A DNA stretch of 64,000 bases, from positions 372,001 to 436,000 of the forward strand of contig NZ_BMXU01000001.1 in assembly GCF_014651915.1 (NCBI RefSeq), given 5' to 3'. The position numbers were made by a program, and so were the translations under genes. This stretch comes from Parvularcula lutaonensis (GTDB lineage: Bacteria; Pseudomonadota; Alphaproteobacteria; Caulobacterales; Parvularculaceae). The notes below the pieces were generated by a model. The model saw only the letters and a program-made list of their open reading frames with translations. It had not been told where the DNA came from and did not search any database. Shown here piece by piece: positions 9,250 through 54,996 of this stretch; position 1 is the first letter of the stretch; each line of letters begins with the position of its first letter.

Positions 9250-9265
9250 AAAAGATATACCTATT
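9250..9265 (+). promoter_or_regulatory. site A operator 1, upstream of leuC-like gene
   Basis: AAAAGATATACCTATT, centred on GATATACC and ending 17 nt before the leuC-like ATG. It is one of eleven copies of the island palindrome AAAWGRTATAYCHTTT; its right half is the most diverged here. The position over the likely promoter fits repression. Confidence 0.65.
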
Positions 9266-9282
9266 GCTCTATCCTGCGCGCG

Positions 9283-10659
9283 ATGAGGACATTGTTCGAC
9301 AAGCTCTGGGACGCGCACCGGGTCGAGGGCGCCGCAATCGGTGGCCACGATCTGATAGCGATCGACCGCTTGCTGCTACACGAGCGGACGGGCGGCGTGG
9401 CGTTGAAGAGCCTCGCGGAGAAGGGTCTCCGTCCGCTGGATCCGAAACGCGCCTTCGCGGTGATGGATCATATCGTGTCTTTCCGCGAAGGACGCGATCG
9501 TGACGAGGCCAGGAGCCCTGGCGGCGGTGCTTTCATCACCGAAACCCGAGCAATGGCGACCGAAGCTGGTCTGAACCTCATCGATACCGATCATCCGTCG
9601 CAAGGCATCGTTCATGTCATTGCGCCAGAGCTTGCCATCGCGGCGCCGGGATTGACGCTGGTCTGCCCTGACAGTCACACCTGCAGCCTTGGCGCACTGG
9701 GAGCGCTTGCCTGGGGTATCGGTTCCTCGGAGGCCGAGCACGCGCTGGCCACGGGTTGCGTGCGCGTGAAGAAGCCCAAGCAGATGCGCATTCGAATCGA
9801 GGGGCGGTTGCCACCGGGCGTGACGGCCAAGGACTTGGCATTGCATATCATCGCAAACTACGGAGCAAATGGCGGGAATGGATGCGCCATCGAATATTCT
9901 GGCGAAGCGGTCGCTGATCTCGACATCGAGGCGCGGTTGACGCTTTGCAATCTTGCGGTCGAGTTTGCTGCCTTCACCGCTGTGATCGCACCCGACGAGA
10001 AGACCAGAGCCTTCCTGGAAGGCAAGCCGTTCGCGCCCCCTTCGAATGTATTGCGTCAGCGCCTTGAGACTGACGAACAGGCCGTGTTTGATCGGGAAAT
10101 CCTCATTGAGGCAACGACCGTCAGCCCACAGATCAGCTGGGGCACCAGCCCCGAAGAAACGATCTCGCTCAGTGGACGTGTCCCAACCGACGGCCGAGAA
10201 AAGGCCTTGCGCTACATGGGTCTCGCGCCCGGTATGCCGATCGAAGGCGTACCAATTGGCGGAGCGTTCATAGGATCGTGCACGAATGGGCGTTTAAGCG
10301 ATCTCGTTTCGGCTGCGAAGGTGCTGCGTGGGCGGAAGGTTGCAGAAGGCGTCAGGGCCGTTTGCGTGCCGGGCTCGCAAGGGGTCAAGCGCGAGGCCGA
10401 GCGGCAGGGGCTGGACGTGATCTTCAAGGATGCAGGTTTTGAATGGGGAGCACCGGGCTGCGCCATGTGTTTTTATGCAGGAGGAGAGACCTTCGCGCCG
10501 GGAACGCGCGTCGTCTCATCAACCAACAGGAATTTCGAGGGCCGTCAGGGTCCTGGCGTCAGAACGCACCTGACCAATCCGGCCGTCGTTGCGGCCAGCG
10601 CAGTTGCGGGCAGGATCGCCTCACCGTCCTCCCTGCCCGTACGTGAGGAGGCCGCGTGA
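9283..10659 (+). CDS. LeuC-type hydro-lyase large subunit (aconitase superfamily)
   Basis: The 458-residue protein is the iron-sulfur large subunit of an isopropylmalate isomerase-type enzyme. The 4Fe-4S ligands are visible: GSCTNG (Cys about 332) and PGCAMC (two Cys about 392 and 395). The HPSQGIVHV and PDSHTCSLGALG active-site loops are also visible. It follows E. coli LeuC along its length but departs around the substrate region: it has CFYAGGETFAPG where LeuC has a CLAMNNDRLNPG-type segment. Relatives in this family hydrate citraconate or 2,3-dimethylmaleate. A site A operator, and no leuB or leuA nearby, argue for a catabolic hydratase of a substituted maleate rather than leucine synthesis (inference). 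It overlaps the small-subunit gene by 1 nt. Confidence 0.85.
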   Translation: MRTLFDKLWDAHRVEGAAIGGHDLIAIDRLLLHERTGGVALKSLAEKGLRPLDPKRAFAVMDHIVSFREGRDRDEARSPGGGAFITETRAMATEAGLNLIDTDHPSQGIVHVIAPELAIAAPGLTLVCPDSHTCSLGALGALAWGIGSSEAEHALATGCVRVKKPKQMRIRIEGRLPPGVTAKDLALHIIANYGANGGNGCAIEYSGEAVADLDIEARLTLCNLAVEFAAFTAVIAPDEKTRAFLEGKPFAPPSNVLRQRLETDEQAVFDREILIEATTVSPQISWGTSPEETISLSGRVPTDGREKALRYMGLAPGMPIEGVPIGGAFIGSCTNGRLSDLVSAAKVLRGRKVAEGVRAVCVPGSQGVKREAERQGLDVIFKDAGFEWGAPGCAMCFYAGGETFAPGTRVVSSTNRNFEGRQGPGVRTHLTNPAVVAASAVAGRIASPSSLPVREEAA

Positions 10660-11273
10660 TGGCTGAGCCTTTCCGGGTTCATAGAGGAAGAGCCGTTGTG
10701 CTCCCCGTCAACCATGTGGATACGGACCAGATCATTCCATCGCGCGAGATGAAGAGGGTGAGCAGGGAGGGCCTCGGTGAAGGGCTGTTCGCGGGCTGGA
10801 GATACCGTGAAGCCAGCGGGCGGGAGCCGGTGCCCGAATTCCCCCTCAATCGACCCGAGGCGGAAGGTGCCACGATTCTCGTCTCTGGCGAGAACTTTGG
10901 GTGCGGATCATCTCGCGAGCATGCAGTTTGGGCCCTTGCTCAATATGGCTTTCGGGTGATCATCGCCGAGAGCTTTGGCGCTATCTTTCGCGGGAATTGT
11001 ATCCGGAATGGTATTTTGCCCCTGAGCCTGCCCGGAAAAGACTGCACGCAATGGCGAAATGGGGTCGAAATTTCTGTCGATCTCGAAGCGCAGAAGTTGA
11101 TCCTTCACGACCAGACCGTCCGGCAATACGACTTTGATATTGATCCGTATGCGAAAAAGCTGTTGCTCGAGGGGCTCGAGCCGATTGCGATGACCCTGTC
11201 CCAGTCGGAAAGCATCGAAGAGTTCATCGAGCGAGACAAAAAGATGCGGCCCTGGCTTTACTCTGCTGCGTGA
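10659..11273 (+). CDS. LeuD-type hydro-lyase small subunit
   Basis: The 204-residue swivel-domain subunit pairs with the preceding large subunit. Signatures are NHVDTDQIIPSRE, GENFGCGSSREHAVWAL and the FRGNCIRNGILPL segment. The SSR and NGILP residues contact the substrate carboxylates in this family. ATG at 10659 overlaps the large-subunit stop (TGATG), and GAGGAGG precedes it; an in-frame GTG lies 3 nt earlier. The 3' end overlaps the convergent CoA-transferase gene by 16 bp. The length is normal for LeuD. Confidence 0.88.
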   Translation: MAEPFRVHRGRAVVLPVNHVDTDQIIPSREMKRVSREGLGEGLFAGWRYREASGREPVPEFPLNRPEAEGATILVSGENFGCGSSREHAVWALAQYGFRVIIAESFGAIFRGNCIRNGILPLSLPGKDCTQWRNGVEISVDLEAQKLILHDQTVRQYDFDIDPYAKKLLLEGLEPIAMTLSQSESIEEFIERDKKMRPWLYSAA

Positions 11274-12472
11274 GCACGGCGATGGCGCTTTGGAGTATCG
11301 ATGATGCCTCGGTCTTCGAGACCTTTTATGGTGTCCTCATCCCGTCCAAGCGACCGGAGAATTTCAACCGTGTTCTGACCAATCTCGGGCGGATCGAAAC
11401 GAAGGGCAGGCCGCTCTCCTTCTATGGCTAGCGGCAACGCCGGAAGAGCGATCTCTCCGCCGTCCGGTATCGTCATCTCGAGAAGGCCGCCGCTTTCAGT
11501 CAGGTGGGGGTCATCGAAGAGATCTTCAGGCCGCTTGATCGGCGCGAAGGGCAGGCCGAGTTCTTCGAGCTTGGCCATGAGGTCAGACTGGGCGTGCTCG
11601 GCGAAGAGCTTCTTCAGGCGAGGAATGATCTCGTCGCGCCGGGCCACGCGTTGATTGTTCTCGCGCAGGCTCTCATCGGCAGCCCATTCATCGAGGCCGA
11701 ACGCTTCGCAGAAGGTCGTCCATTGGCTGTCGGAGACAACACCGACGAAGACTTTCTCGCCATCCTTCGTGTCGAAAACATCATAGACGGCCCACGCCGA
11801 TATACGGGCCGGCATGGGTGCGGCCGGCGATCCGGTCACGGCATATTGGGCCATGTGCTGGCCTACGAGGAACACGGATGTTTCAAAAAGGGAGCTTGAT
11901 ACATGCGTGCCCACGCCGGAGAGGTCCCGCTGGCGCAGAGCCGCGAGGACAGCAATGGCGCCGAACATGCCGCCTGCGACATCAATGACGGATGCTCCGG
12001 CGCGCAACGGACGACCGGGTGGCCCGGTCATATAGGCAAGACCACCCATCATCTGGGCCACCTCGTCAAGAGCGGTTCGATGCCTGTAGGGGCCGTCGAG
12101 AAAGCCTTTTTCCGAGCAATAAATCAGCTTGGGATTGAGCTCTTTGAGCTGCTCATAACCGAAGCCGAGTTTGTCGAGCGCACCAGGGCGAAAATTTTCG
12201 ACGAATACGTCTGCTTCTTTGATGAGGTCGAGAGCAATCGCCCGGCCCTCTTCGGATTTGAGATCGACAGCGAGGCTCTTCTTGTTGCGGTTGTACATCG
12301 GAAAATAGCCAGCACCGGAACCGCGCAGGCGGCGGGTCTTATCGCCTCCGACAGGTTCGACCTTGATAACTTCGGCCCCAAGATCGGCAAGGATCAAACC
12401 GGCCGCTGGGCCCATGACCATATGCGTGAATTCAACGACCTTGAGGCCGTCGAGCAATGATTTCGCGGGCAT
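11258..12472 (-). CDS. CaiB/BaiF (family III) CoA-transferase
   Basis: The 404-residue protein begins LLDGLKVVEFTHMVMGPAAG, then LILADLGAEVIKVEP, the usual family III start, and contains YNRNKKSLAVDLKSEEGR and NFRPGALDKLGFGYEQL. The catalytic Asp lies in GASVIDVAGGMFG. Such enzymes move CoA between carboxylates through an aspartyl-CoA intermediate; close paralogues act on malate, citramalate and itaconate. The ATG at 12472 has GGGAGGATC 5 nt upstream; a longer open frame to 12553 would run through the operator. It is divergent from the HMG-CoA-lyase-type gene across a shared site A. The expected job is activating the hydroxy-diacid made by the LeuCD-type enzyme (inference). Confidence 0.85.
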   Translation of the reverse strand: MPAKSLLDGLKVVEFTHMVMGPAAGLILADLGAEVIKVEPVGGDKTRRLRGSGAGYFPMYNRNKKSLAVDLKSEEGRAIALDLIKEADVFVENFRPGALDKLGFGYEQLKELNPKLIYCSEKGFLDGPYRHRTALDEVAQMMGGLAYMTGPPGRPLRAGASVIDVAGGMFGAIAVLAALRQRDLSGVGTHVSSSLFETSVFLVGQHMAQYAVTGSPAAPMPARISAWAVYDVFDTKDGEKVFVGVVSDSQWTTFCEAFGLDEWAADESLRENNQRVARRDEIIPRLKKLFAEHAQSDLMAKLEELGLPFAPIKRPEDLFDDPHLTESGGLLEMTIPDGGEIALPALPLAIEGERPALRFDPPEIGQNTVEILRSLGRDEDTIKGLEDRGIIDTPKRHRRAHAAE

Positions 12473-12520
12473 GAGATCCTCCCGAACCGGCGAAAACCGC
12501 TGGTTTTCTTTATCTGAAGG

Positions 12521-12536
12521 AATTGGTATATCATTC
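12521..12536. promoter_or_regulatory. site A operator 2, divergent CaiB / HMGL promoter
   Basis: AATTGGTATATCATTC, flanked by an additional GG/CC pair (12519-12537). It sits between the minus-strand CaiB gene and the plus-strand HMG-CoA-lyase-type gene and can control both. Confidence 0.8.
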
Positions 12537-12577
12537 CGGAAGCAAGTCTGCACCTGACTTTTGAACCGGAGCTGTCA

Positions 12578-13516
12578 ATGGACGCCGTGCTGATAAGCGA
12601 AGTCGGTCCGCGGGACGGCCTGCAGAACTGCAAGGCGGTGATGCCGACGGCGGCAAAGAAGGCGTGGATCTCCGCCCTTGCAGAGGCTGGGCTGAAGGAA
12701 ATCGAGGTCGGCTCTTTCGTTTCGCCCAAGCTGCTGCCGCAAATGGCGGACACCGCAGAGATTGCCCGCCATGCTTGCGGTATTGATGGTCTGGCAGTCG
12801 CCGTGCTGGTGCCGAACCTGAAAGGCGCGCAGCTCGCCGTGGAGGCAGGGGCCCACAAGATCACCCTGCCGATGTCCGTGAGCGAGACCCATTCGCTGAG
12901 AAACATTCGCCGGACCCACGACCAGGTGATCGAAGAAGCGCACGCGATCAGCGAGCTGATTGCGAGCCTGCCGGAGGATGAGCGACCAGACTTCGAGGGA
13001 TCGCTGTCGACAGCTTTCGGCTGCACGCTGGAAGGACCGATTGATGAGAAGATCGTCCTTCGTTGCGCAGAGCGACTGATTGCGGCGGGCTGTGACGAGG
13101 TCGGGCTGTCCGATACGACGGGGTATGCAAACCCGCGCGCGATCCGTCATCTGATCAAGGCCGTTCGCGCGGAAGTCGGGGCGGACAGGCTGACCGGGGT
13201 GCATCTTCACAACACCCGCGGCCTCGGCCTCGCCAATGCCCTGGCCGCCTTCGAGGAAGGGATAACGACCTTTGACAGCTCGCTCGGCGGGCTTGGCGGC
13301 TGTCCGACGGCCCCTGGCGCGAGCGGAAATATCGTGACCGAGGATCTCGTTTTCATGTTCGAAAGCATGGGGGTTGCCACCGGTGTGGATCTCGACCGGT
13401 TGATGGCTTGCCGCGAGTTTCTGGAACGAGCCCTGCCGGAAGAGCCGCTTTATGGTTTCACGCCGCTGGCGGGCCTGCCCTTGGGTTTTCGGCCTGCCGC
13501 AACTGAAGCGGCCTGA
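12578..13516 (+). CDS. HMG-CoA lyase family enzyme
   Basis: The 312-residue TIM-barrel lyase has the family N-terminus ISEVGPRDGLQN (metal and catalytic Arg/Asp). It also has the EVGSFVSPKLLPQMAD loop, the metal-binding VHLHNTRGLGLAN histidines and the signature GGLGGCPTAPGASGN with the catalytic cysteine. HMG-CoA lyases cleave 3-hydroxy-3-methylglutaryl-CoA to acetoacetate and acetyl-CoA. Relatives cleave other branched 3-hydroxyacyl-CoAs such as citramalyl-CoA analogues. Placed opposite a CoA-transferase under the same operator and next to a LeuCD-type hydratase, it is a good candidate for cleaving a substituted malyl-CoA (inference). Leucine catabolism is the alternative, but no other leucine genes are present. 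Confidence 0.88.
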   Translation: MDAVLISEVGPRDGLQNCKAVMPTAAKKAWISALAEAGLKEIEVGSFVSPKLLPQMADTAEIARHACGIDGLAVAVLVPNLKGAQLAVEAGAHKITLPMSVSETHSLRNIRRTHDQVIEEAHAISELIASLPEDERPDFEGSLSTAFGCTLEGPIDEKIVLRCAERLIAAGCDEVGLSDTTGYANPRAIRHLIKAVRAEVGADRLTGVHLHNTRGLGLANALAAFEEGITTFDSSLGGLGGCPTAPGASGNIVTEDLVFMFESMGVATGVDLDRLMACREFLERALPEEPLYGFTPLAGLPLGFRPAATEAA

Positions 13517-13521: not shown

Positions 13522-14976
13522 ATGATGCTCAGTTCAGAGACGTCTTGGGCGCTTCTCACCCTGATCGGCTATGCGACCATTCTGTTTGGCATAGGAGTCT
13601 GGGCGGCGCAGCGCGCGACGACAAATGCTGATTTCTTTCTCGGCGACAGGTCGCTGGGGCCTCTGGTAGCGGGTCTGGCCTACGCTGCCTCAACGTCGAG
13701 CGCGTGGGTCCTTCTAGGGTTTTCGGGCTTTGTTTATAGCGCGGGACCTTCTGCGCTTTGGATGGTGCCGGGAATTCTTGTCGGATATGCGGCGGTCTGG
13801 CTTGGAGCGGGGAGGGTGCTGCAGGAGGAAAGCCGAGAGCGGGGTTTCCTGACACTGACGGACTTTCTTGCAGCAGGCTCCGGTCCTGTCGAGCGATGGA
13901 TCAGAGGGGCTGCAAGCCTGATGATCGTCTTCTGCTTCGCATACTATGTCGCCTCGCAGTTCCAGGGAGCAGGGACGGCGTTCGACGGCTTGTTTGGCAG
14001 CGGACTCACCAATGGGGTGCTGCTCGGTGCTACGATCATTCTTCTTTACACGTTTCTCGGTGGCTTTGTTGCCGTCTCGCTGATCGACACTCTTCAGGGA
14101 CTGCTTATAGCATTCGTTGCGGTCTTGCTCCCTGCGGTGACTTTTCTCGCGGCCGGAGGATTTGCCGGATGGGAGTCTGCCTTCGCGGATGCGCCTGAGA
14201 CTTACGCCAGCACCTTCGGAGGGCGGACAGCTTTTGCGGCGTTCGGCTTCGTGGTCGGTCTGTTCGCCACGGGCTTTGGCGCGCTCGGTCAACCGCATCT
14301 TGCTGCGTGGATCATGGCGAGTCGCAGTCGCAAGGCACGCATCACCGGTGCCGGAATCGCGATTGGCTGGGGGGCCCTCGTTTATTCCGGCATGGCTGTT
14401 CTCGGCCTCTCGGCGCGGGCTCTTTTCGGAGGGGGTGTTCCGGCGGAGGGGGTGTTCTTTCAGGCAGCGTCAGAGCTGCTCCCACCAATCTTCGCCGGCG
14501 TCATCATCGCAGCCACGCTCTCGGCGATCATGTCGACGGTGGACAGCCAGTTGCTGGTGGTTGGCGCAGCGGTCAGTCACGATCTCGGCTTGGCAAAGCT
14601 ATTCGGAGGGCGAGAAGTGCTCGTTTCCCGGCTGGCGATCGTGGTGGTCTGTGCAGCCGCTGTGGTGCTGACGCTAGCGCTCCCCTCGACGATCTTTGCC
14701 CGGACGCTTTTCGCCTGGACGGCTTTAGGGGCGAGTTTTGGTCCCGTGGTCATCGCCCGCGCCTTCGGCTGCACGCCGAAGCCCGGCGGCGTGCTGGCGG
14801 CTCTCTTGATCGGTTTCGGGCTGAGCCTTGCCTATGAATTCGTGCTGCCCTCGGGACCGGGCGCTGTTTGGGCGCGTACGGTCCCGTGGGGGGCAGGATT
14901 CCTTGCGCTCTGGTTGTTTACGGCGGCGGGATCGCGGCCGGTGATTGCTGACAAAAGCGTTGCCGAAGCAGGCTGA
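13522..14976 (+). CDS. sodium:solute symporter (SSS family, PutP-like)
   Basis: The 484-residue inner-membrane protein has about 13 hydrophobic helices. SSS features include the N-terminal FFLGDRSLGPLVAGLAYAAS, with the unwound TM1 segment, and STSSAWVLLGFSGFVYSAG. A later AIMSTVDSQLLVVGAAVSHD carries the Na2-site serines and threonine. It starts 5 nt after the lyase stop and so shares the site A promoter. It would import a small carboxylate or amino-acid-like substrate with sodium. The substrate is unknown; co-regulation suggests an acid released by the island's degradation steps. Confidence 0.88.
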   Translation: MMLSSETSWALLTLIGYATILFGIGVWAAQRATTNADFFLGDRSLGPLVAGLAYAASTSSAWVLLGFSGFVYSAGPSALWMVPGILVGYAAVWLGAGRVLQEESRERGFLTLTDFLAAGSGPVERWIRGAASLMIVFCFAYYVASQFQGAGTAFDGLFGSGLTNGVLLGATIILLYTFLGGFVAVSLIDTLQGLLIAFVAVLLPAVTFLAAGGFAGWESAFADAPETYASTFGGRTAFAAFGFVVGLFATGFGALGQPHLAAWIMASRSRKARITGAGIAIGWGALVYSGMAVLGLSARALFGGGVPAEGVFFQAASELLPPIFAGVIIAATLSAIMSTVDSQLLVVGAAVSHDLGLAKLFGGREVLVSRLAIVVVCAAAVVLTLALPSTIFARTLFAWTALGASFGPVVIARAFGCTPKPGGVLAALLIGFGLSLAYEFVLPSGPGAVWARTVPWGAGFLALWLFTAAGSRPVIADKSVAEAG

Positions 14977-14991
14977 TGCGTGCGACGGTGT

Positions 14992-15007
14992 AAAAGATAT
15001 ACCCTTT
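14992..15007 (+). promoter_or_regulatory. site A operator 3, upstream of DUF1838 gene
   Basis: AAAAGATATACCCTTT, 17 nt before the GTG start of the DUF1838 gene and just upstream of its GGAGGAGG ribosome site. Confidence 0.78.
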
Positions 15008-15024
15008 AGGGGAGGAGGAAAAAA

Positions 15025-15924
15025 GTGATCCGTTCGATCCTTCTGGCAGGCGCAGCTGCCATCGCATCACTAGGCGCCGCGCAGGCGCAGGACCGTCTTG
15101 ACCCCGGTGACCCTCAAGACACGCTCAAGATCATGCGGAAAATCCAGTGCTCGCTCAAGGAGAACGAGCCAGCGATCTACTGGTGGCACGGCGTCGCCTA
15201 TTCGCGGAAGCAGGGCGAGCGCGATCGCAAGCTGTTCAACGTCGAAGGCATGAACATACGCGCTTGCTCCCGGACCCGCGACCGGGAATTGGGCCAGGGC
15301 TTCGCACTCGTGTCGCGTGAGATCCTTCTGTACAAGGACCCGGAAACGAACGAGGTCCTCACGACCTGGGACAATCCGTGGACGGGCGAGACTGTCGAGG
15401 TGCTGCACGTCGCGAACGACCCGGTCAACTTCGAGATGTACGAGACCGGACGCGGGGGGCAGCCGACCTCCTGGGCTGGCGAGATCGGCCCCGACGGGAC
15501 CTGGTGGTACCGTTCGACTTTTCCGCTTTGGTATCCCAACCCACTTGGTGGTGCGTTTCAGCAAGAGGTCGGGGGGACCTACCACGCGACAGAGCTGTTC
15601 AACTTCTTCGGGCGAACAGATGATCTTCTCGACCCTGATCTTCCGTCTGCGAAGGTGACGGTAGGATGGTCGCGCATTGCGGACTGGCTTCCCTGGATGA
15701 AGATGAATGGCCGCGAGGGGATCATCTACATGCATACAGCCGGGCGCAAGCTCTCGAGTTTCGACGAGCTCAGCGACACCATGAAAGAACAGATCGCGAC
15801 TCACTATCCCGACTATGCGCGGCCTCCCCGGCGAGGGGACGATCGGGAAAACATGACGAGCTGGGAATACTACAAGCGTGTCAAGGAGGGTTCGATCGAG
15901 CCGCCGAGGCGGGGAGGGGACTGA
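15025..15924 (+). CDS. DUF1838 family periplasmic protein
   Basis: The 299-residue protein has a clear signal peptide (SILLAGAAAIASLGAAQAQD) and then a DUF1838 domain. Conserved-looking features are YWWHGVAYSRKQGERDRKLF, the MNIRACSRTRD segment, YKDPETNEVLTTWDNPWTGE, and a C-terminal GWSRIADWLPWMKMNGREG. Aromatic content is unusually high (many Trp and Tyr), as in hydrophobic-ligand binding proteins. DUF1838 has no assigned function. The start is GTG at 15025 after GGAGGAGG. It is single under its own site A operator and next to a TonB receptor, so it may bind or process the imported compound in the periplasm (inference). Confidence 0.75.
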   Translation: MIRSILLAGAAAIASLGAAQAQDRLDPGDPQDTLKIMRKIQCSLKENEPAIYWWHGVAYSRKQGERDRKLFNVEGMNIRACSRTRDRELGQGFALVSREILLYKDPETNEVLTTWDNPWTGETVEVLHVANDPVNFEMYETGRGGQPTSWAGEIGPDGTWWYRSTFPLWYPNPLGGAFQQEVGGTYHATELFNFFGRTDDLLDPDLPSAKVTVGWSRIADWLPWMKMNGREGIIYMHTAGRKLSSFDELSDTMKEQIATHYPDYARPPRRGDDRENMTSWEYYKRVKEGSIEPPRRGGD

Positions 15925-16455: not shown

Positions 16456-16561
16456 CTTTTCTGCCTTTCCGTGAGTGTGGTCTAACTGCAGCATTAATTT
16501 GTCGATTTGCAGTTTCCGCGACAATCCGCCCTTGCATCATCGCCCGATCCGACGGATGCTC

Positions 16562-16577
16562 AAATGATATATCTTTT
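16562..16577. promoter_or_regulatory. site A operator 4, divergent DUF3598 / TonB receptor
   Basis: AAATGATATATCTTTT, 41 nt upstream of the TonB receptor ATG and about 106 nt from the minus-strand gene's ATG. Confidence 0.78.
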
Positions 16578-16618
16578 GTCGGGCGTGTCGAGAGCTATCG
16601 GCATAAGGGAGGTGCAGA

Positions 16619-46257: not shown

Positions 46258-46281
46258 CCCGGTGTCATGGCCATAGGCGAC

Positions 46282-48642: not shown

Positions 48643-49547
48643 GGAGTTTCACCGAAAAGGTCGACCGCCTTGGCCGCCGTGCAGACCCTGATCTCATCCA
48701 TGGCCGCGAGGCCTGCCAGGATTCGGCGGAGAGCCTCGATGCGGAAAGGCTGGCCCGCGATGAAAGGCGTCAGGGTGAAGGCAAAAGCACCCGCCCCCTC
48801 GTCCTCGTAACGGCCGACATGATCATCCGCAGTGGACAGGATCTGGGTCACCCACTCATCCTCGCTCTGGTTGCGTGTGGCGAGCAGGGTGAAATCCGAG
48901 AGTTCATTGTAATGAGGGACCGCAGTGATGCTGCCGTGCGCGGTCTTCATGGCAAGGGGGCGCATGTCGGCTTCCCAGTCGAGACATACCTTGAAACCCG
49001 CTTCGGCGAGCAGGGGCAGGGTGTTGAAGCTCTCGTTACGCGCCGGGCTCAGCCAGGTCGTCGCTTGGGGAAGCGCGCTCCTCACGCGCTCAATCAGTTG
49101 GCGCTCTTCGTTTTCGGTGAGACCTGCATGGTGGATGTGAGCGGTAGATACCCCGGCTGCCGCGATCTCGTGCTTGCCGTCCTTGATTGCGTCGAGCAGG
49201 GGAGGGTAGCGCTCCGCGGTCGCGGCGTCGACGCAGAAGGTCGCCTTGCAACCGGCGTGGTCAAGCTCCCGGAGTATGCGGAACACTCCGACGCGGTTGC
49301 CGTAGTCCCTGCTCGTATAGTGACGAAGGTCCGGATAAGGTGTTTTCATCCCGGCCGGGTGCCTGAATGGCTCGGACGGCGGGTCGAGCGGGAAGAATTC
49401 GCAAGGGACGACGATTGTCGCTGTAGCCTTGAGCCGCTTCTTGAGCTTGGCTTTCTTGCGCAACGGGACGGGTTCCCAGCCGTAGAACGGCTGGTCAAAT
49501 CCCCGCTTTCGGTGAGGATACTGAAGGTATTCGTCAGGCAGGGGCAA
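48639..49547 (-). CDS. degenerate NodB-fold protein (partner of the downstream imidase-like gene)
   Basis: The 302-residue protein keeps the overall NodB/polysaccharide-deacetylase plan: ATIVVPCEFFPLDPPSEPFR, GNRVGVFRILRELDHAGCKA and PALPQATTWLSPARNES-type segments. The metal-binding strand reads HEIAAAGVSTAHIHHAG instead of HEIxSHG, so a key His is absent from its normal place. The start is best placed at TTG 49547, with GGGAGG 8 nt upstream, giving a 14-nt overlap with the preceding gene; the open frame to 49664 lies inside that gene. It may be a non-catalytic subunit of the imidase-like protein encoded just upstream. Confidence 0.7.
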   Translation of the reverse strand: MPLPDEYLQYPHRKRGFDQPFYGWEPVPLRKKAKLKKRLKATATIVVPCEFFPLDPPSEPFRHPAGMKTPYPDLRHYTSRDYGNRVGVFRILRELDHAGCKATFCVDAATAERYPPLLDAIKDGKHEIAAAGVSTAHIHHAGLTENEERQLIERVRSALPQATTWLSPARNESFNTLPLLAEAGFKVCLDWEADMRPLAMKTAHGSITAVPHYNELSDFTLLATRNQSEDEWVTQILSTADDHVGRYEDEGAGAFAFTLTPFIAGQPFRIEALRRILAGLAAMDEIRVCTAAKAVDLFGETP

Positions 49548-50475
49548 AACCGGTCCCTCCCGTTGCAATGCCGCGCTTTTCGATGTCCGCGAGGGTCTGG
49601 TCCCAGAAGTTATCGCGAAAGTGCTCGGCGATTTCGCTGCCGGTTGCGAACCAGACATCGTCATTGTGCGAAGTGATGTGCTTCAGCACACGCTTGAATG
49701 CCCGCAGGCGATGCGGCTGGCTGACAAGATAGGCGTGGAGCGGGATGCACATCACCGTGCCCGATTGGGAGCCCTCTTCGAGAAGCTGGTCGAAATGGCG
49801 GATCAGGACATCCGCATAACGTTCGGCTGACCATCCCTGCACGGAGTAGCCGATCACGTCATTGACCTCGAGAGAGTAAGGCAGTGAAACAAGCCTGCCC
49901 GCTTTGGTCTTCAGGGGTTGGGGCTGGTCGTCCTGGAACAGGTCGCAGGTGTACCAGAAGTCGTACTCCGCGATGAGGTCGAGGGTCTTCTCCGTATGCG
50001 TCAGAGCGGGCGCGAGATAGCCTCGGATTCGCTGGCCGGTAGCGTTCTCCACACTCTTGATCGAGTCTTCGAGGACGGCGCGCTCCTGCGCTTCATCCAT
50101 GCCGTAGCTGAAACGGGTGTTGTAGATGCCGTGGGAAAAGAACTCCCAGTTGCGCTCGACGCAGGCTTCGATAATCTCGGGATGATGGTCGATGAGGCCA
50201 ATCGAAAGCGAAATCGATCCGCGCAAGCCGTATTTGTCGAACAGCTCCATCATCCGCCAGTGGCCGACGGTGTTGCCCCAAGTCCGCTGGGAGTAGCCGA
50301 CGACATCCGGATTGCCGCGAGGCCAAGGCTTGCGTTGCGGGTTCGGAGGCGGATTCCACTCGTAATACTCGATATTCGGGGCGATCCAGAAGGCGAGCTT
50401 CTTTCCGCCCGGCCACTTGATCCGTGGACGTCCTTCATAGGGCCAGTAATCGTAGAGATTTGGGTCGGAGTGCAT
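49534..50475 (-). CDS. NodB-fold C-N hydrolase, imidase/allantoinase-like (second)
   Basis: The 313-residue cytosolic protein has WPGGKKLAFWIAPNIEYYEW (catalytic strand, about 21-40), NTVGHWRMMELFDKYGLRGS, the metal-binding EFFSHGIYNTRFSYGMDEAQ (about 111-130), and GTVMCIPLHAYLVSQPHRLR near 265. It is in the PuuE/imidase-like section of the polysaccharide-deacetylase superfamily and resembles the 27738-28634 product. It sits between a degenerate paralogue (downstream, overlapping by 14 nt) and the maleamate-amidohydrolase-like gene (upstream, overlapping by 1 nt). Hydrolysis of a cyclic imide to a half-amide fits that order. Confidence 0.8.
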   Translation of the reverse strand: MHSDPNLYDYWPYEGRPRIKWPGGKKLAFWIAPNIEYYEWNPPPNPQRKPWPRGNPDVVGYSQRTWGNTVGHWRMMELFDKYGLRGSISLSIGLIDHHPEIIEACVERNWEFFSHGIYNTRFSYGMDEAQERAVLEDSIKSVENATGQRIRGYLAPALTHTEKTLDLIAEYDFWYTCDLFQDDQPQPLKTKAGRLVSLPYSLEVNDVIGYSVQGWSAERYADVLIRHFDQLLEEGSQSGTVMCIPLHAYLVSQPHRLRAFKRVLKHITSHNDDVWFATGSEIAEHFRDNFWDQTLADIEKRGIATGGTGFAPA

Positions 50476-51173
50476 CAGCCGGGATACTCCTCGATCGCAG
50501 CGTAGACCTCCTGGACTGTCACCACATCAGCGTATTTCAGGTGCAGATCGGTGAGGTTCGCGTAGTGATAGCTTTCATGCTTGTCGGCCACGCATTCGAT
50601 GGGAACGATGGTCCTGTACCCGCGTGACAGGCTGTCCACCGCGGTGGCCCGGACGCAGCCCGAGGTGGAACCTCCGGTCACGACCACGGTGTCGACCTTG
50701 TGCCACACGAGGAAGCTTTGCAGGGGCGTCTCGAAAAACGCGCTCGGCATTCGCTTGGTATAGACCGCATCGACGTCTTGGTGGATCGAGAGCCGGTCAT
50801 CGAAGGCGTGCCGCTCCGAGCCATACTTGATGTTCTGAAGACTGTCTGGTGTGTCTGTCCTCGTGCCCCAGACGCCAGCGTCGGCCCCGTTCTCCATATA
50901 AGCGACATGGGTCCAGACGACCGGCAGGCCCTTGGCCCGTGCGGCCTTCGAGATCCCGTCGATGTGCTCCATCTGCCGCGGATCGGTGATGTAGCCGGTT
51001 TTCGGAAAGAGATCGGGCCTGGTGTAGGCTTTTTGAGGATCGACATTCACGATCGCCATTTTCTCGCCGAAGCCAAAAGCCGCCCTGGCCGGGTTTGCCC
51101 AGACCTCCTCGAAGATTTCGCGGGCAGTCTTGTCCGAGCGGATCATGGTCGGCTCGGTCAGACGGTCTGTCAT
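50475..51173 (-). CDS. isochorismatase-fold amidohydrolase, NicF / N-carbamoylsarcosine amidase-like
   Basis: The 232-residue cytosolic enzyme has the Asp-Lys-Cys triad: FGEKMAIVNVDPQKAYTRPD, YTKRMPSAFFETPLQSFLVW and VVTGGSTSGCVRATAVDSLS. It closes with the LTDLHLKYADVVTVQEVYAA helix. That pattern is typical of N-carbamoylsarcosine amidase and of maleamate amidohydrolase NicF, which turns a maleamic acid into maleate and ammonia. ATG at 51173 gives the normal length; the RBS is weak. It heads the minus-strand operon with two NodB-fold genes, the nitrilase-like gene, YCII and GntR regulator 2, under sites A and B. Confidence 0.87.
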   Translation of the reverse strand: MTDRLTEPTMIRSDKTAREIFEEVWANPARAAFGFGEKMAIVNVDPQKAYTRPDLFPKTGYITDPRQMEHIDGISKAARAKGLPVVWTHVAYMENGADAGVWGTRTDTPDSLQNIKYGSERHAFDDRLSIHQDVDAVYTKRMPSAFFETPLQSFLVWHKVDTVVVTGGSTSGCVRATAVDSLSRGYRTIVPIECVADKHESYHYANLTDLHLKYADVVTVQEVYAAIEEYPG

Positions 51174-51191: not shown

Positions 51192-51207
51192 AAATGTCCG
51201 GACAATG
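51192..51207. promoter_or_regulatory. site B operator 3 (overlaps a site A)
   Basis: AAATGTCCGGACAATG; core TGTCCGGACA at 51195-51204. It is 19 nt upstream of the amidohydrolase ATG on the minus strand. Its right end overlaps the next site A by 5 nt. Confidence 0.75.
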
Positions 51208-51218
51208 ATATACCCTTT
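51203..51218. promoter_or_regulatory. site A operator 10 (overlaps a site B)
   Basis: CAATGATATACCCTTT, with core GATATACC intact. It lies between the C-N hydrolase operon (ATG 51173, minus) and the DUF1330 gene (ATG 51256, plus, 37 nt away). The overlap with site B means the two regulators could compete for this DNA. Confidence 0.78.
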
Positions 51219-51255
51219 CCCGGAAAAATCATCCCCGAGTGAAAGGGAAACCTGC

Positions 51256-51639: not shown

Positions 51640-51716
51640 CGTGTTGCGGCGCAATATGAGGCAATCCGGCCACAGAGTCCGGTCAAAGTAAATTTTCCTC
51701 GTTTCCAGGTCGACAG

Positions 51717-51732
51717 AAAAGATATATCTTTT
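51717..51732 (+). promoter_or_regulatory. site A operator 11, upstream of the second TonB receptor
   Basis: AAAAGATATATCTTTT, a perfect 16-bp palindrome 25 nt before the receptor ATG. Flanking G and CC resemble operator 9. Confidence 0.85.
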
Positions 51733-51757
51733 CCACGGCAACAGGGAGACTCGTGTC

Positions 51758-53929
51758 ATGAGACGGCTTAGAGCTACGCTGGCAGGTGCCGGCGCAATCA
51801 GTGCAATCGTGACCGCGTGGGGTGCAACGGCTAGCGCGCAAGGGCCGGAAGCCGATATCGAAGACGACGACGTCATCCTCGTCACAGCCCAGAGGCGGGT
51901 TCAAGACATTCAGGATGTCCCGGCCGCGGTGACGAACCTCTCCCAAGACGAGCTTGAGGCGAACCAGGTCGCTGACGTTACAGATCTCCAATACCTGATC
52001 CCGAATATTTCGATAGCAGCCGGCACCGGCACGGCAAACTCCGCTAGGATCTTCCTCCGCGGTGTCGGTGAGGACGAGAGCCGCGGCGCGGTCGACCCCG
52101 CCGTCGGGATCTACATCGACGGCATCTATATCGGACGTCAGGTCGGCTCGCTCTTCGACCTCGTGGATGTCGAGCGGATCGAGGTGCTGCGTGGTCCGCA
52201 GGGCACGCTCTACGGCCGGAACACCAATGGCGGTGCAATCAAGCTCGTCAGCGTCCGTCCCCAAATGGAGAACGGCGGGGAAGTCCGGACGCTGATCGGT
52301 AACGAGGGCAGGGTCGACCTGCGGGCGACCGCGAACCTTGCCCTTGGCGACAACACCGCGTTCCGCGTGACCGGCTTCAGCCGAGACCGTGATGGGTTCT
52401 GGGACTTCAATCCGAACGGAGCCGCCGCGCAGTTCGGCGGCGAATTCGGTGAGCTGAAGACCCGCGCGGTGAGAGCCAGCCTGCTGCACAACTTCACCGA
52501 GGACTGGCGACTGCTTCTGTCTGCTGACTATACCAACGACCTCAGCGATCCGATCCCGGACTCGGCAGCGCCGCCTAATGATGCCGATGGGGACGTTTTC
52601 ACGATCGAGCCTCTTCCAGGCACCACATGCGCAGCGGGAACCCCGATCACGTTCCAGCCGCTGGGCTGTTTTGGCGGCTACGACAACAACACGGAGTCGC
52701 AAGGCTATTCCGCGAACCTTGAAGGTGTCTTCGGCAATTTCGACTTCGTTTCGCTGACGGGTTATCGGGAGATGGAGGACGACCTTGCCACCCGGATCGG
52801 GTTCCCGTATTTCCAGCAGACGACGCAGGACCAGTTCAGCCAGGAGTTTACGCTCAGTTCGAACTTTGACGGGCCGTTCAACTTCGTCGGCGGCGTCTAC
52901 TACTTCACCGAAGATGTCCTGCTCGAAACCACTTTCATCTTCCCCTTCTCGGTGGATACGAGCACCGAGAGCTATGCAATCTTCGCGCAGGGTTTCCTCG
53001 ATGTCGGCGACAACGGAACACTGACGGTCGGTGGCCGGTACACAGACGAGGAGAAGGAGCTCGATGCCGCGAACCTTGCCTTCAACCTTACCCGGATGGA
53101 GGACATCAGCTTTGACGACTTCAGCTACACGCTGAAATACGACCATGACTTCACCGAGGACGTCATGGGGTATGTCAGTTACTCCACGGGTTTCAAGGCT
53201 GGTGGTTGGTCGCCTGATTGCTTCGGCGCTGCTGCGTGCTTCCTGCCCGTCGAAGAAGAGACGCTGGACAGCTTCGAGATCGGCGTGAAGACGGACCTCT
53301 TGGACGGGATGCTCCGCTTCAACGCGACTTATTTCAACAACGACTACGAGAACTTGCAGATCGGCGCGACGGTGCCGGGCCTCGGTTTCACCCGGTTCAA
53401 CGTCGACGAAACGTCGATCCAGGGTTTTGAGTTCGAGTGGAACCTCGACTTGAGCGATAGTTTCTCGGTCTTCGGTAACCTCGGTCTTCTCGATGCGGAA
53501 TATACCTCCGTGACCCAGAGCCAGGCCGGTGGCCTGACCAACTCCGGCGCATCCTGCCCTGGCGGTGTCGTCACTATCGAGTGCGCCCTCGACCTCGAGC
53601 TCAAGAACGCTCCCGAGTACAAGGGCCTCGTCGGTGCGCAGTACGAGACGCCGTTTGCCAACGGCATCTTGACCGTGCGGGGTGATGTGTCGTTCGAGGA
53701 CGACAGCTGGAGCCTCGTGGCAAACGGTCCGCCCCATGCGCTCACTGATCCGGGCGCGTTGCTGAACGGCCGGATTCACTACGAGCCAATGGACGGCAAT
53801 TGGTTTGTCGCCGTTTGGGGCCAGAACCTCACGAACGAAGAGTATTGGCGCGCAGCGTCGGCAAACAGCTTCACGGTCTACGCGTCCCCGCCGATCACCT
53901 ATGGGGTCGAACTCGGAGTCGAGTTCTAG
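51758..53929 (+). CDS. TonB-dependent outer-membrane receptor (second)
   Basis: The 723-residue precursor has a signal peptide ending ATASAQ, then a TonB-box/plug start DDDVILVTAQRRVQDIQDVP and AAVTNLSQDELEANQVADVT. The plug continues with GVGEDESRGAVDPAVGIYID and the DVERIEVLRGPQGTLYGRNT block. The barrel ends YGVELGVEF, with a terminal Phe. It is about 100 residues shorter than the first receptor and only generally similar, so the two probably take related but different substrates. It is co-transcribed with the exported double-VOC protein 8 nt downstream. Confidence 0.93.
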   Translation: MRRLRATLAGAGAISAIVTAWGATASAQGPEADIEDDDVILVTAQRRVQDIQDVPAAVTNLSQDELEANQVADVTDLQYLIPNISIAAGTGTANSARIFLRGVGEDESRGAVDPAVGIYIDGIYIGRQVGSLFDLVDVERIEVLRGPQGTLYGRNTNGGAIKLVSVRPQMENGGEVRTLIGNEGRVDLRATANLALGDNTAFRVTGFSRDRDGFWDFNPNGAAAQFGGEFGELKTRAVRASLLHNFTEDWRLLLSADYTNDLSDPIPDSAAPPNDADGDVFTIEPLPGTTCAAGTPITFQPLGCFGGYDNNTESQGYSANLEGVFGNFDFVSLTGYREMEDDLATRIGFPYFQQTTQDQFSQEFTLSSNFDGPFNFVGGVYYFTEDVLLETTFIFPFSVDTSTESYAIFAQGFLDVGDNGTLTVGGRYTDEEKELDAANLAFNLTRMEDISFDDFSYTLKYDHDFTEDVMGYVSYSTGFKAGGWSPDCFGAAACFLPVEEETLDSFEIGVKTDLLDGMLRFNATYFNNDYENLQIGATVPGLGFTRFNVDETSIQGFEFEWNLDLSDSFSVFGNLGLLDAEYTSVTQSQAGGLTNSGASCPGGVVTIECALDLELKNAPEYKGLVGAQYETPFANGILTVRGDVSFEDDSWSLVANGPPHALTDPGALLNGRIHYEPMDGNWFVAVWGQNLTNEEYWRAASANSFTVYASPPITYGVELGVEF

Positions 53930-53937
53930 GAGGCGCC

Positions 53938-54996
53938 GTGGCGAGCAACTTCGGCAAACTCTGGAGGTATGCTCTTGCAGCATACCTCCTTTTCTTTGTC
54001 TTGCCCGCGCCGGCGATGCAGCGGCCGCCGCCAGTCACCACCGAGCCTTGGCTGATGGCGACGGCCAGCGTCACCGACCTTGATCGCTCGGCCCGGTTTT
54101 TCCGGGAAATTGGCGGATACGAGACTGCGTTCCAAGGCCCGCTTGACGAAGCCGAGATCGAAGCGCTCGGGCTGCCTGAGGGCGCAGGTGGCGAAGTCCT
54201 CGTCCTGCGTGCTCCGGGTGCCGAGCACGGGCTTGTCAGGCTGATACGCTTCGATCATGCAGGTCAGAAGGTGCCTACGCGTCCTGGTGCCCGCGCCTGG
54301 GATACCGGCTGCATTTGGTCGCTCATGGTGCGGATGAAGGATATCGAGGCGATCTATCACGATGCGATCGCGCTCGGTTGGTGGACCGAGACTCCGATCA
54401 CGTATCTAGAGTTCGGCCCTTCCAAGCTGAACGTCGTCGTCTTCAAAGGTCCCGATGGACTTCAGGTGCAGGGCTATGAGCGCCTGACCACGCCGCTCCC
54501 TGACGGTTTCCCCGCGTTCGAGCGGATGAGCCAGCCGTTCAACGTCATGCAGATGACCCGTGACAGGGAGGCAGCCCGTGCCTTGATGGAGGATATCCTT
54601 GGCTTCGCCAGATTCTGGTATGGAGATCCTTATACGGACAAGGAACCAACGGTCATGCCGCTCGGAATTCCGAGAAACTTGACCACGACGATTCCCTATC
54701 TGGCGGGTATTTTCTACCCTGAGCCGATGGAATTCGGGCGCATGGAATACATTGAAATTCAGGGACTCGACGGGGCCGACTACGCCGAACGCTGCGATGC
54801 CCCCAATCTCGGCTGGCTCTCGGTGACCTACCCCGTGGAAAGCGCCCGTCGGGCCAAAGCCGAGATCGAGACGCGTGGCGGCAAGGTCGAGGGTGGGGCG
54901 TTCACCGCGTTTCGCCCTCCCTTCGGTGTTCAGGAGGTGATCCGCGTCCGCGCACCGGACGGCGCCGTGATCGAATTCGCCAGTCTCGCCGAGTAA
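53938..54996 (+). CDS. exported two-module VOC protein
   Basis: The 352-residue protein has a signal peptide (LWRYALAAYLLFFVLPAPAM) and two VOC modules: WLMATASVTDLDRSARFFRE with IGGYETAFQGPL, then QPFNVMQMTRDREAARALME with DILGFARFWYG. The last segment, GVQEVIRVRAPDGAVIEFAS, has the usual C-terminal Glu. Start GTG 53938 is set by TAGGAGGC; the frame is open upstream only inside the receptor gene. It is the second gene of the receptor operon, so it likely handles the imported compound in the periplasm, by binding, isomerisation or ring cleavage. Confidence 0.78.
   Translation: MASNFGKLWRYALAAYLLFFVLPAPAMQRPPPVTTEPWLMATASVTDLDRSARFFREIGGYETAFQGPLDEAEIEALGLPEGAGGEVLVLRAPGAEHGLVRLIRFDHAGQKVPTRPGARAWDTGCIWSLMVRMKDIEAIYHDAIALGWWTETPITYLEFGPSKLNVVVFKGPDGLQVQGYERLTTPLPDGFPAFERMSQPFNVMQMTRDREAARALMEDILGFARFWYGDPYTDKEPTVMPLGIPRNLTTTIPYLAGIFYPEPMEFGRMEYIEIQGLDGADYAERCDAPNLGWLSVTYPVESARRAKAEIETRGGKVEGGAFTAFRPPFGVQEVIRVRAPDGAVIEFASLAE

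Follow-up and report, generated by a model that had tools for sequence, protein, structure and literature searches.

A shared operator defines a catabolic island in Parvularcula lutaonensis with a proposed role in degrading methyl-substituted imides

Positions 9249-54996 of a 64-kb stretch of Parvularcula lutaonensis DNA (contig NZ_BMXU01000001.1; the whole stretch is called the window below) hold a catabolic island of about 46 kb, in a genome of 2.95 Mb and 10 contigs, whose genes share an 18-base operator and which looks like one regulon. As a whole, the island is best explained as a regulon degrading methyl-substituted imides, most likely derived from tetrapyrroles, an explanation to which we give an even chance. 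It draws on gene content, shared operators, co-inheritance and a recurrent partnership of hydrolases, hydratase and lyases, and from these it predicts the enzyme activities and the substrate. A first-pass annotation of the window had proposed an island for the catabolism of a bilin, tripyrrole or similar lactam or imide; its interpretation is partly supported overall, the substrate being a prediction.

Shared operators and gene content of the island

A search for shared dyads in intergenic spaces identified the 18-base palindrome GAAAAGATATAYCNTTTC (operator A). Allowing up to three mismatches, operator A occurred at 13 distinct places in the genome, nine of them in the island, which makes up 1.5% of the genome; four of these nine sites (9249, 46241, 51202 and 51716) were known when the pattern was written, so that the fair count is five of nine. 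As a control, the reversed pattern gave one forward and one reverse match genome-wide. Some assignments of operators to genes use corrected gene starts. Outside the island, the best match (C4:28983) starts 66 bases upstream of prpD, which is followed by a gene for a small protein, prpB and prpC. NCBIfam scores were above the cut-off for prpB (411.7 against 354.4) and for methylcitrate/citrate synthase (577.5 against 479), and below it for PrpD (859 against 950). Since these methylcitrate genes carry operator A, propionyl-CoA is likely a product of the pathway. Two GntR-type regulators are encoded within the island, and we propose that they exert the control. A few known GntR-type operator patterns had no match in the intergenic spaces of the island. 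The single regulon, a guess in the first-pass annotation, is supported by the operator searches.

We also searched for operator A in four relatives, where forward matches and forward controls numbered 10 and 2 (G001), 6 and 1 (G019), 8 and 5 (G023), and 3 and 2 (G035). Because these control counts are uneven, the operator argument in relatives rests on position. Ten sites on the island side were tested in these last three genomes (G019, G023 and G035), and eight precede a homologue of an island gene, namely DUF1838, HapK/methyltransferase (twice), isochorismatase (twice), TonB receptor (twice) and MFS. In G001, and in other parts of G019 and G023, the operator stands before leuCD, the genes for the lyase HMGL and the CoA-transferase CT3a, isochorismatase, TonB receptors and a membrane-protein operon.

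A second palindrome, B (TTTGTCCGGACAAA), gave five matches in the window at three mismatches (2.05 expected) and 87 forward matches genome-wide (60 for the reversed control), and at up to one mismatch three of its nine places in the genome lay inside the island. With match counts this near the control it was dropped as strong evidence, just the three best sites being suggestive. One copy overlaps operator A by five bases before the isochorismatase gene (51193-51219), and since two different palindromes overlap there, two regulators may meet at this point.

Island proteins were scanned with Pfam and, for part of them, NCBIfam profiles (Table 1), and the genes named in the first-pass annotation were all present. 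They encode two TonB receptors, two inner-membrane transporters (SSF and MFS), a CpeT/CpcT-family protein and small proteins of the dimeric-barrel type (HapK, YCII and a DUF1330 relative) and of the DUF3598 type (one barely above its cut-off, one barely below). Six further proteins are of C-N hydrolase type: three of the NodB/polysaccharide-deacetylase family, one nitrilase-superfamily protein, one amidase-signature enzyme and one isochorismatase. The CoA-ester set consists of three CaiB-type CoA-transferases, an acetyl-CoA hydrolase/transferase-type protein, LeuCD, HMGL, a RipB/Ich-type hydratase, an acyl-CoA dehydrogenase (ACAD), an enoyl-CoA hydratase, two MmgE/PrpD proteins and a PaaK-like ligase.

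When the CpeT protein was used as a query, matches were obtained in five of 61 relatives (the genome itself included) and in one of nine congeners, and the four other matching genomes carry island genes, which in G001 and G035 are distributed over several contigs. As the gene set recurs in G001, G019, G023 and G035, partly on several contigs, and CpeT is found in just these few relatives, chance is very unlikely as the origin of the set. In a wider survey anchored on the methyltransferase, the best 80 of 167 relatives were tallied at identities of at least 40% over at least half the length; 49 of the 80 loci extend at least 8 kb on both sides, L018 is identical to L008 in sequence, and L025, L026 and L028 have sequence in common with L009, L012 and L015, so that these are not independent. 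By record title, the loci came from Hyphomonadaceae, Caulobacteraceae, Sphingomonadales, Niveispirillum and others, including two cultured relatives, Hyphomonas polymorpha PS728 and Hirschia maritima DSM 19733, that have at least the half of the set around the methyltransferase. They contained the SDR oxidoreductase (66), HapK (54), NodB1 (47), the 311-aa protein (36), the RipB-type hydratase (29) and ACAD (29), and leuC, CT3a and HMGL were all present in 12, seven of which also had NodB3. Among 385 genomes of the class, the methyltransferase (E ≤1e-70) was found in 14, NodB3 (E ≤1e-60) in 37 and both in 13 (Fisher 9e-14, ignoring relatedness; eight of nine by family). Taken together, these surveys show an island that is sporadic within its family, with a core that recurs across Alphaproteobacteria. 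Three tandem methyltransferase paralogues (41-43% identity) were seen beside the NodB trio in L142:12754-16355 (G393:C25), and four genomes of the same family show four methyltransferase matches each, four candidates having been scored per genome. An amine-oxidase-type protein of relatives had no intact copy in the genome of the window (best E 7e-4, with an internal stop).

The isochorismatase-NodB3-NodB2 operon and its partners

Thirty stretches anchored on NodB3 were fetched from other genomes among the NodB3 matches, 19 with at least 51% NodB3 identity (two of them from G234) and 11 with lower identity (L151-L161), several ending early at contig ends. All 19 closer stretches contained NodB2 and 18 contained the isochorismatase; a LeuC-type hydratase was present in eight, an isocitrate-lyase/PEP (phosphoenolpyruvate)-mutase-type lyase in 11, and the two together in seven. 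On the Sphingomonas plasmid pJE1, genes for HMGL-type, isochorismatase, NodB, NodB, LeuC, LeuD and isocitrate-lyase-type proteins are consecutive, with a divergent CaiB-LeuC-LeuD set, and an Acidiphilium plasmid has the order CaiB, HMGL, isochorismatase, NodB, NodB, LeuC, LeuD, flavin adenine dinucleotide (FAD) oxidoreductase, porin, MFS. A Burkholderia plantarii plasmid carries lyase, FAD oxidoreductase, LeuD, LeuC and GntR genes and, divergently, the trio with an MFS gene; on a Comamonas plasmid the trio lies with genes for an AMP-binding protein, ACAD and an alpha/beta hydrolase, with no hydratase or lyase nearby. The isochorismatase-NodB3-NodB2 trio, which remains a unit well away from the island, is a mobile operon. 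Since two different lyases accompany the same hydratase and amidase, a substituted maleate is suggested as the intermediate.

Two side observations concern this operon. L096 (pJE1) and L097 (pTomTYG65b) contain the same catabolic region at near-identical gene coordinates in differently named sphingomonads, one plasmid being typed as mobilizable and the other as conjugative. In L135:8873-19661 (G329:C25) the trio adjoins the apparent end of a photosynthesis cluster (HemA-, AcsF-, PuhA/B/E- and LhaA-like proteins, by reading the sequences); as this was seen in L135 alone among the loci examined then, it was dropped as evidence.

PF01522 was above its cut-off in the three NodB proteins, and structures of the allantoinase PuuE are among the nearest relatives of NodB3. 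Histidines H97, H115 and H247 of NodB3 were kept in all 52 aligned sequences, and H117, H176 and H253 of NodB1 in all 48. H178 of NodB2 was present in 97% of 30 sequences of at least 38% identity; the idea that NodB2 is a histidine-free partner subunit came from a looser set, and was dropped as closer relatives keep H178. In the isochorismatase-type protein D86, K181 and C214 (long-ORF numbering; ORF, open reading frame), which we take to be the catalytic residues, were at least 95% conserved in 14 sequences, and we propose that this protein is a linked half-amidase with an intact catalytic site; N-carbamoylsarcosine amidohydrolases are the closest structures with a name. The HMGL-type lyase aligns with 3-hydroxy-3-methylglutaryl-CoA (HMG-CoA) lyases, its residues R12, D13, H209, H211 and C242 being at least 95% conserved in 17 sequences, and it scores within the HMG-CoA lyase subfamily NF004283 (290.4 against 246); its acyl-CoA substrate is a proposal. 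The leucine-type LeuC equivalog TIGR00170 was not reached (448.6 against 560), while the broader PRK12466 (602.8 against 531) and the leuD model TIGR00171 (195 against 116) were exceeded.

The same hydrolases could also be read as belonging to hydantoin, pyrimidine or ureide catabolism, with PuuE-, RutB- and N-carbamoylsarcosine-amidase-like enzymes: NodB1 and NodB3 match PuuE, the isochorismatase matches N-carbamoylsarcosine amidohydrolase, and the nitrilase-type protein matches formamidase, aliphatic amidase and N-carbamoylputrescine amidase models. We consider this very improbable, as all scores lie far below the equivalog cut-offs (for PuuE, TIGR03212, 218.9 with NodB1, 128.6 with NodB3 and a further score of 52.1, against 424.6), the frequent hydratase, CoA-transferase and C-C lyase partners would be superfluous for ureide routes, and operator A also stands at the methylcitrate genes.

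A proposed route and its substrate

We propose that the TonB receptors import a compound with a ring nitrogen, which a GntR-controlled regulon would degrade to central metabolites. The NodB-fold hydrolases would convert cyclic imides (or lactams) that carry a methyl substituent to half-amides by opening the ring. Removal of the nitrogen would fall to the isochorismatase-type enzyme together with the amidase and the nitrilase-type enzymes, and would leave a methyl-substituted maleate. The LeuCD-type hydratase would hydrate this to a malate, which a CaiB-type CoA-transferase would charge and the HMGL-type enzyme split into a 2-oxoacid and an acyl-CoA; in relatives, an isocitrate-lyase-type enzyme takes the place of this CoA route or stands beside it. 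Overall, the malate would thus give a 2-oxoacid with either an acid or an acyl-CoA. HMGL-type lyases cleave tertiary 3-hydroxyacyl-CoA esters, so the substituent would be on the hydroxyl carbon, in a methyl-substituted malyl-CoA such as hydration of a methyl-substituted maleate would give. The position of hydration would decide between pyruvate with a substituted acetyl-CoA and a 2-oxoacid with propionyl-CoA, and the second outcome is favoured, at least in part, because operator A stands at the prp genes. Other side-chain patterns may be handled by a second, itaconate-type branch of CoA-transferases, RipB-type hydratase and ACAD. From the sequences, we regard the route from imide to methylmaleate as probable. 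The catabolic island under common control, the nitrogen release by imide or amide hydrolysis and the branched-diacid chemistry of the first-pass annotation are supported. Two results go beyond it: the frequent association of the trio with a LeuCD-type hydratase and C-C lyase, as degradation of a methyl-substituted maleimide would require, and the operator at the methylcitrate genes.

That second branch raises the question of an island for itaconate or branched-diacid degradation with incidental amidases, and the RipB-type hydratase, ACAD, CoA-transferases and MmgE/PrpD proteins here, with a RipC-type lyase in relatives, do resemble an itaconate operon. Nevertheless, RipB scored 224.7 against a cut-off of 340 and the RipC of a relative 241.1 against 375, TonB receptors and six C-N hydrolases are not required for itaconate, and across the class NodB3 turns up in more genomes (37 of 385) than the methyltransferase core does (14 of 385, at differing limits), which leaves this explanation improbable.

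A tetrapyrrole, that is, a breakdown product of bilin, chlorophyll or haem, is our first choice of source because its C-methyl rings can give methylmaleimides and because CpeT-family proteins recur in the islands; we put it at just short of even odds, arguing from sequence. In haem, chlorophyll and bilins, each ring has a methyl group next to a second substituent, and oxidation of the rings gives methylvinyl- and methylethylmaleimide and hematinic acid. Several names of source organisms and samples (Phycosocius, Aquidulcibacter, bloom samples), taken from titles without a count, suggest algal or cyanobacterial company. In the available text of PMC10343206, haem oxidation ends in hematinic acid and methylvinylmaleimide, and the Escherichia coli haem protein ChuS yields hematinic acid. 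According to the available text of PMC7318184, chlorophyll in leaves gives rise to hematinic acid and to products of lactam type, and earlier work cited there had found maleimides both in leaves and in sediments of lakes.

The first-pass annotation had argued for tetrapyrroles from CpeT, an argument that the data do not support in that form. Long CpeT proteins in the islands of relatives scored 110.3 and 128.0 bits (profile 5-177 and 2-181), and one of them (L198) is divergent from leuCD with operator A between the two. The window protein lacks the first 50 of the 181 profile positions, its C-terminus weakly matches plant CRL (E 0.002), and CpeT, short or long, was found within 10 kb in 15 of the 80 methyltransferase-anchored loci. 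A class-wide PF06206 search gave matches in four of 385 genomes and missed the window's own copy, so that it is insensitive and an undercount; with this reservation, CpeT looks rare in the class yet recurrent in these islands. G351, a fragmented assembly (contigs of L207-L212), has five CpeT-family matches, and an isochorismatase-NodB pair on another contig.

The same imide or lactam to methylmaleate pathway might instead serve another ring-nitrogen natural product (an alkaloid, a cyanobacterial or plant lactam, or a substituted pyridine or indole product), CpeT-type proteins then binding lipids or other ligands. Judged by record titles, the bacteria with the methyltransferase-HapK-SDR-NodB1 core have varied origins, and in 65 of the 80 loci no CpeT lies within 10 kb. 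Caprolactamase-type subunits (541 bits, below the cut-off of 1000) are encoded next to the set on pJE1, and HapK resembles polyketide cyclases and muconolactone isomerase. On the other hand, methyl-substituted maleates derived from imides point to C-methyl pyrroles, and to our knowledge they have few other abundant sources; the recurrence of the apparently rare CpeT family (by that insensitive search) also speaks for pyrroles. We judge another substrate rather unlikely.

HapK had been taken in the first-pass annotation as a pointer to tripyrroles, which is not supported, since the fold predicted for it, a dimeric alpha/beta barrel, is generic and says little on such compounds; HapK was accordingly dropped as proof of a tripyrrole substrate. 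Its model matched a plant polyketide cyclase at Foldseek ranks 1-7, HapK 2jdj at rank 8 (27% identity, TM-score 0.80) and 4-methylmuconolactone methylisomerase first at rank 15; the alignment comprised 24 of the 54 homologues and the window protein. A HapK-like gene was 1.9-fold up on a lignin dimer in the available text of PMC4609964, and open-licence literature on HapK/RedY, pJE1 and CpcT/CpeT gave no functional lead. For the methyltransferase (alignment of 28 of the 80 and the window protein; model of mean pLDDT 80.5), structural matches were limited to general methyltransferases. Together with this S-adenosylmethionine (SAM) methyltransferase, the HapK/RedY-type protein and its polyketide-cyclase-like fold could indicate a biosynthetic or antibiotic-modification cluster, and ACAD also has hits, well short of the cut-offs, to PigA and RedW, two models of prodigiosin proteins. 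Such a cluster is scarcely credible given the absence of a synthase among the scanned proteins, the CoA-ester breakdown enzymes, the uptake receptors and the methylcitrate genes with operator A; as the first-pass annotation had held, no prodiginine biosynthesis gene was above cut-off among the island proteins scanned, NCBIfam covering part of them.

Several points weigh against imide degradation fed by tetrapyrroles. CpeT is confined to that minority of the 80 loci, the window copy is a partial profile match, and two of the four PF06206 genomes are without NodB3 or methyltransferase at the limits used. The fold of HapK is common to many enzymes, and what the methyltransferase and SDR would do is not evident. 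The RipB-type protein, like NodB1 and NodB3, falls below its NCBIfam equivalog cut-off. The less similar NodB3 stretches (11 of 30) are mostly without amidase and hydratase partners, the isochorismatase having no match in ten and a 29% match in L159. The operator controls of G023 and G035 are not uniformly low, and the sugar transporter of the flank, a control, was found in 10 genomes, four with the methyltransferase and the same four with NodB3; because of this overlap, part of the genome-level co-occurrence is background. Maleimides themselves went undetected in leaves in the available text of PMC7318184. Finally, no haem-oxygenase-like or other ring-opening oxygenase was recognised among the scanned island proteins, which suggests that the substrate is already a fragment or that the opening enzyme is among the uncharacterised proteins.

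The flanks of the island are ordinary by family scan: to its left lie HSP20, PEP carboxykinase and rhodanese genes, and to its right genes for a sugar transporter and for Mur-ligase-type, HAD, NTP-transferase and SIS-domain proteins. HapK most likely starts at 26304 and the isochorismatase at 51146, and CT3a and the 22571-23506 protein probably start downstream of the longest-ORF start. A plus-strand ORF at 45673-47124 is antisense to the membrane-protein and second GntR-type genes. The halves of the FAD/aldehyde dehydrogenase fusion are separate genes in G035, G019 and pJE1, and the dehydrogenase half matches structure 4h7n (E 1e-144); alkylphenol oxidase was dropped as an identity for the FAD domain, whose best structural-sequence matches were D-lactate dehydrogenase and glycolate oxidase, at less than 69 bits. 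Small membrane proteins of two kinds, bearing an H ... YWLGG motif and lacking a Pfam match, recur across islands (45559-46224, L014:8363-9052 and others), and our guess is that they are electron acceptors for flavin enzymes.

Table 1. Features of the island (window positions; scores in bits against family cut-offs)
Feature	Position	Strand	Remarks
Operator A copy (GAAAAGATATACCTATTG)	9249..9266	.	Before leuCD; left edge of island
LeuC-type hydratase large subunit (aconitase family)	9283..10659	+	PF00330 446.9; PRK12466 602.8 > 531; TIGR00170 leuC 448.6 < 560
LeuD-type hydratase small subunit	10656..11273	+	PF00694; TIGR00171 195 > 116
CaiB-type CoA-transferase CT3a	11258..12553	-	PF02515 391.9, match from residue 34; true start probably near 12454
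Operator A	12520..12537	.	Between CT3a and HMGL
HMG-CoA-lyase-type C-C lyase (HMGL), proposed citramalyl-CoA-like lyase	12578..13516	+	NF004283 290.4 > 246
Sodium:solute symporter (SSF)	13522..14976	+	PF00474
Operator A	14991..15008	.	Before DUF1838
DUF1838 protein	15025..15924	+	PF08894 251.7; N-terminus signal-peptide-like by eye
DUF3598-like small protein	15949..16524	-	PF12204 19.5 < 22
Operator A	16561..16578	.	Between DUF3598-like gene and TonB receptor 1
TonB-dependent receptor 1	16619..19096	+	PF00593, PF07715
MFS transporter	19249..20754	+	PF07690
Alpha/beta hydrolase	20755..21564	-	PF00561
MDR-type reductase	21561..22574	-	PF00107, PF16884
Conserved 311-aa protein, weakly VOC/glyoxalase-like	22571..23506	-	PF00903 17.8, below cut-off; in 36/80 related loci
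Operator A	23492..23509	.	Before operon ending at 20.8 kb
DUF1330-like dimeric-barrel protein, 98 aa	23537..23833	+	Homologue L196:12363-12836 (39% identity) matches PF07045
Conserved protein without family	23716..24612	+	No Pfam match; in 15/80 related loci; true start later
132-aa protein adjoining methyltransferase	24609..25007	-	No Pfam family above cut-off; also in three plasmid loci
SAM methyltransferase, family-specific N-terminal domain	24974..26194	-	PF13649; mean column identity 76% (29 sequences)
Operator A	26258..26275	.	Between methyltransferase and HapK
HapK-family dimeric-barrel protein	26304..26618	+	PF11639 44.1 > 25; model pLDDT 96
SDR oxidoreductase	26620..27456	+	PF13561
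NodB1, PuuE-like, predicted cyclic amide/imide hydrolase	27738..28634	+	TIGR03212 218.9 < 424.6
CpeT/CpcT-family protein, short form	28631..29254	+	PF06206 33.1 > 21; profile 51-181
VOC protein	29236..29829	+	PF00903 34.9; N-terminus lipobox-like by eye
Palindrome B TTTGTCCGGACAAA	29879..29892	.	Before RipB/Ich-type gene
RipB/Ich-type (R)-enoyl-CoA hydratase	29917..30438	+	NF038241 224.7 < 340
Acyl-CoA dehydrogenase (ACAD)	30407..31633	+	PF00441
CaiB-type CoA-transferase CT3b	31633..32775	+	PF02515
CaiB-type CoA-transferase CT3c	32772..33941	+	PF02515
DUF3598-N protein	33941..34375	+	PF12204 22.5 > 22
GntR/UTRA regulator 1	34372..35079	-	PF00392, PF07702
Acetyl-CoA hydrolase/transferase-type protein	35080..36351	-	PF13336
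Palindrome B copy	36414..36427	.	At divergent promoter
MmgE/PrpD 1	36415..37719	+	PF03972; ORF start overlaps palindrome B, true start probably later
MmgE/PrpD 2	37716..39098	+	PF03972
PaaK-like CoA ligase	39073..40482	+	TIGR02155 144.9 < 646
Amidase-signature enzyme	40479..41762	+	PF01425 317
Enoyl-CoA hydratase	41759..42541	-	PF00378
FAD oxidase (FAD_binding_4)/aldehyde dehydrogenase fusion, one large ORF	42538..45546	-	PF01565 + PF00171
Membrane protein	45559..46224	-	No Pfam match; conserved in relatives
Operator A	46241..46258	.	Before membrane-protein/FAD-aldehyde dehydrogenase operon
GntR-type regulator 2	46282..47073	-	28% identity to regulator 1, E 4e-17; 67% to L196:7333-8133; assigned by homology
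YCII dimeric-barrel protein	47138..47527	-	PF03795 39
Nitrilase-superfamily amidase	47530..48642	-	PF00795; N-terminus Tat-like by eye
NodB2, second NodB-type protein	48639..49664	-	PF01522 28.5; beside NodB3 in all 19 closest loci
NodB3, proposed cyclic imidase	49534..50475	-	PF01522 31.8; TIGR03212 128.6 < 424.6; PuuE 3cl6 E 9e-29
Isochorismatase-family amidase, proposed half-amidase	50475..51146	-	PF00857 90; N-carbamoylsarcosine amidohydrolase E 1.4e-25
Palindrome B copy	51193..51206	.	Before isochorismatase
Operator A	51202..51219	.	Before isochorismatase
Operator A	51716..51733	.	Before TonB receptor 2
TonB-dependent receptor 2	51758..53929	+	PF00593, PF07715
VOC-like protein	53800..54996	+	PF00903 19.9, just < 20.6; true start later; right edge of island

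Relation to known systems and significance

Parts of the proposed route are known singly. In nicotinate fermentation, 2,3-dimethylmaleate hydratase acts with 2,3-dimethylmalate lyase, and this pairing of an aconitase-family hydratase with an isocitrate-lyase-family lyase is the one found beside the trio in seven of the 19 loci; here, in contrast, the pair occurs in Proteobacteria together with hydrolases of imide type, and what the window contains is instead a CoA-transferase with an HMGL-type lyase. For nicotinate use in Aspergillus nidulans, the available text of PMC9304392 describes a cyclic imidase of the NodB family (HxnM) and, acting after it, an ammonia-freeing amidase (HxnN), with the imidase of Pseudomonas putida YZ-26 as a further NodB/PuuE-family case. 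The island differs in having two NodB proteins and an isochorismatase-type amidase as a unit, often with LeuCD-type hydratase and C-C lyase, and in the TonB and CpeT-type proteins attached. The itaconate pathways (Rip and Ict-Ich-Ccl) share the RipB-type hydratase, CoA-transferase, ACAD and MmgE/PrpD, and the RipC-type lyase of relatives, although the scores are below family cut-offs and no RipC was found in the window island, the nearest copy lying elsewhere in the genome at 45%.

CpeT/CpcT lyases and plant CRL resemble the island proteins in PF06206 scores above cut-off and in a C-terminal (W)DRG...(V/I)WGP that aligns weakly with CRL and broadly with cyanophage CpeT (18-30% identity); the island proteins differ in a signal-peptide-like N-terminus (by eye), in their catabolic setting and in the truncation of the window form. 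HapK/RedY of prodiginine clusters likewise have PF11639 above cut-off, whereas the likeness to 2jdj is only eighth in its list, no prodiginine set was seen and the fold is shared by many barrel enzymes. The HyuA/HyuB-type subunits on pJE1 (541 and 217 bits) recall the caprolactamase CapAB, although they lie below the equivalog cut-off of 1000 and none was seen in the window. No bilin, chlorophyll or imide degradation cluster of this kind was found in open-licence literature, which leaves most subscription papers outside; neither the combination of imidase and amidase, dimethylmaleate chemistry and itaconate-type CoA chemistry, nor a regulon of this kind, defined by its operator and including methylcitrate genes, nor the connection with CpeT was encountered there.

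Chlorophyll turnover is on a scale of 10^12 kg per year (available text of PMC7318184), and narrow searches of open-licence literature brought to light no account of a pathway by which bacteria use the ring carbon and ring nitrogen of chlorophyll. We tentatively suggest, with somewhat less confidence than for the tetrapyrrole source, that the island encodes a complete bacterial route for both in tetrapyrroles: TonB uptake, CpeT handling, hydrolysis of methylmaleimides by NodB and isochorismatase proteins, LeuCD hydration, and cleavage to 2-oxoacids with propionyl-CoA or other acyl-CoAs, the core operon being carried also on plasmids of Alpha- and Betaproteobacteria. There is a real chance that this would be the first ring-carbon pathway for tetrapyrroles. 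Whatever the substrate, the isochorismatase-NodB-NodB set and the LeuCD-type and lyase proteins that accompany it appear to form an unnamed, widespread unit for imide degradation. If the proposal is true, it would supply testable enzymes for methylmaleimides, and a mobile, easily recognised gene set would mark bacteria that recycle pigment nitrogen.

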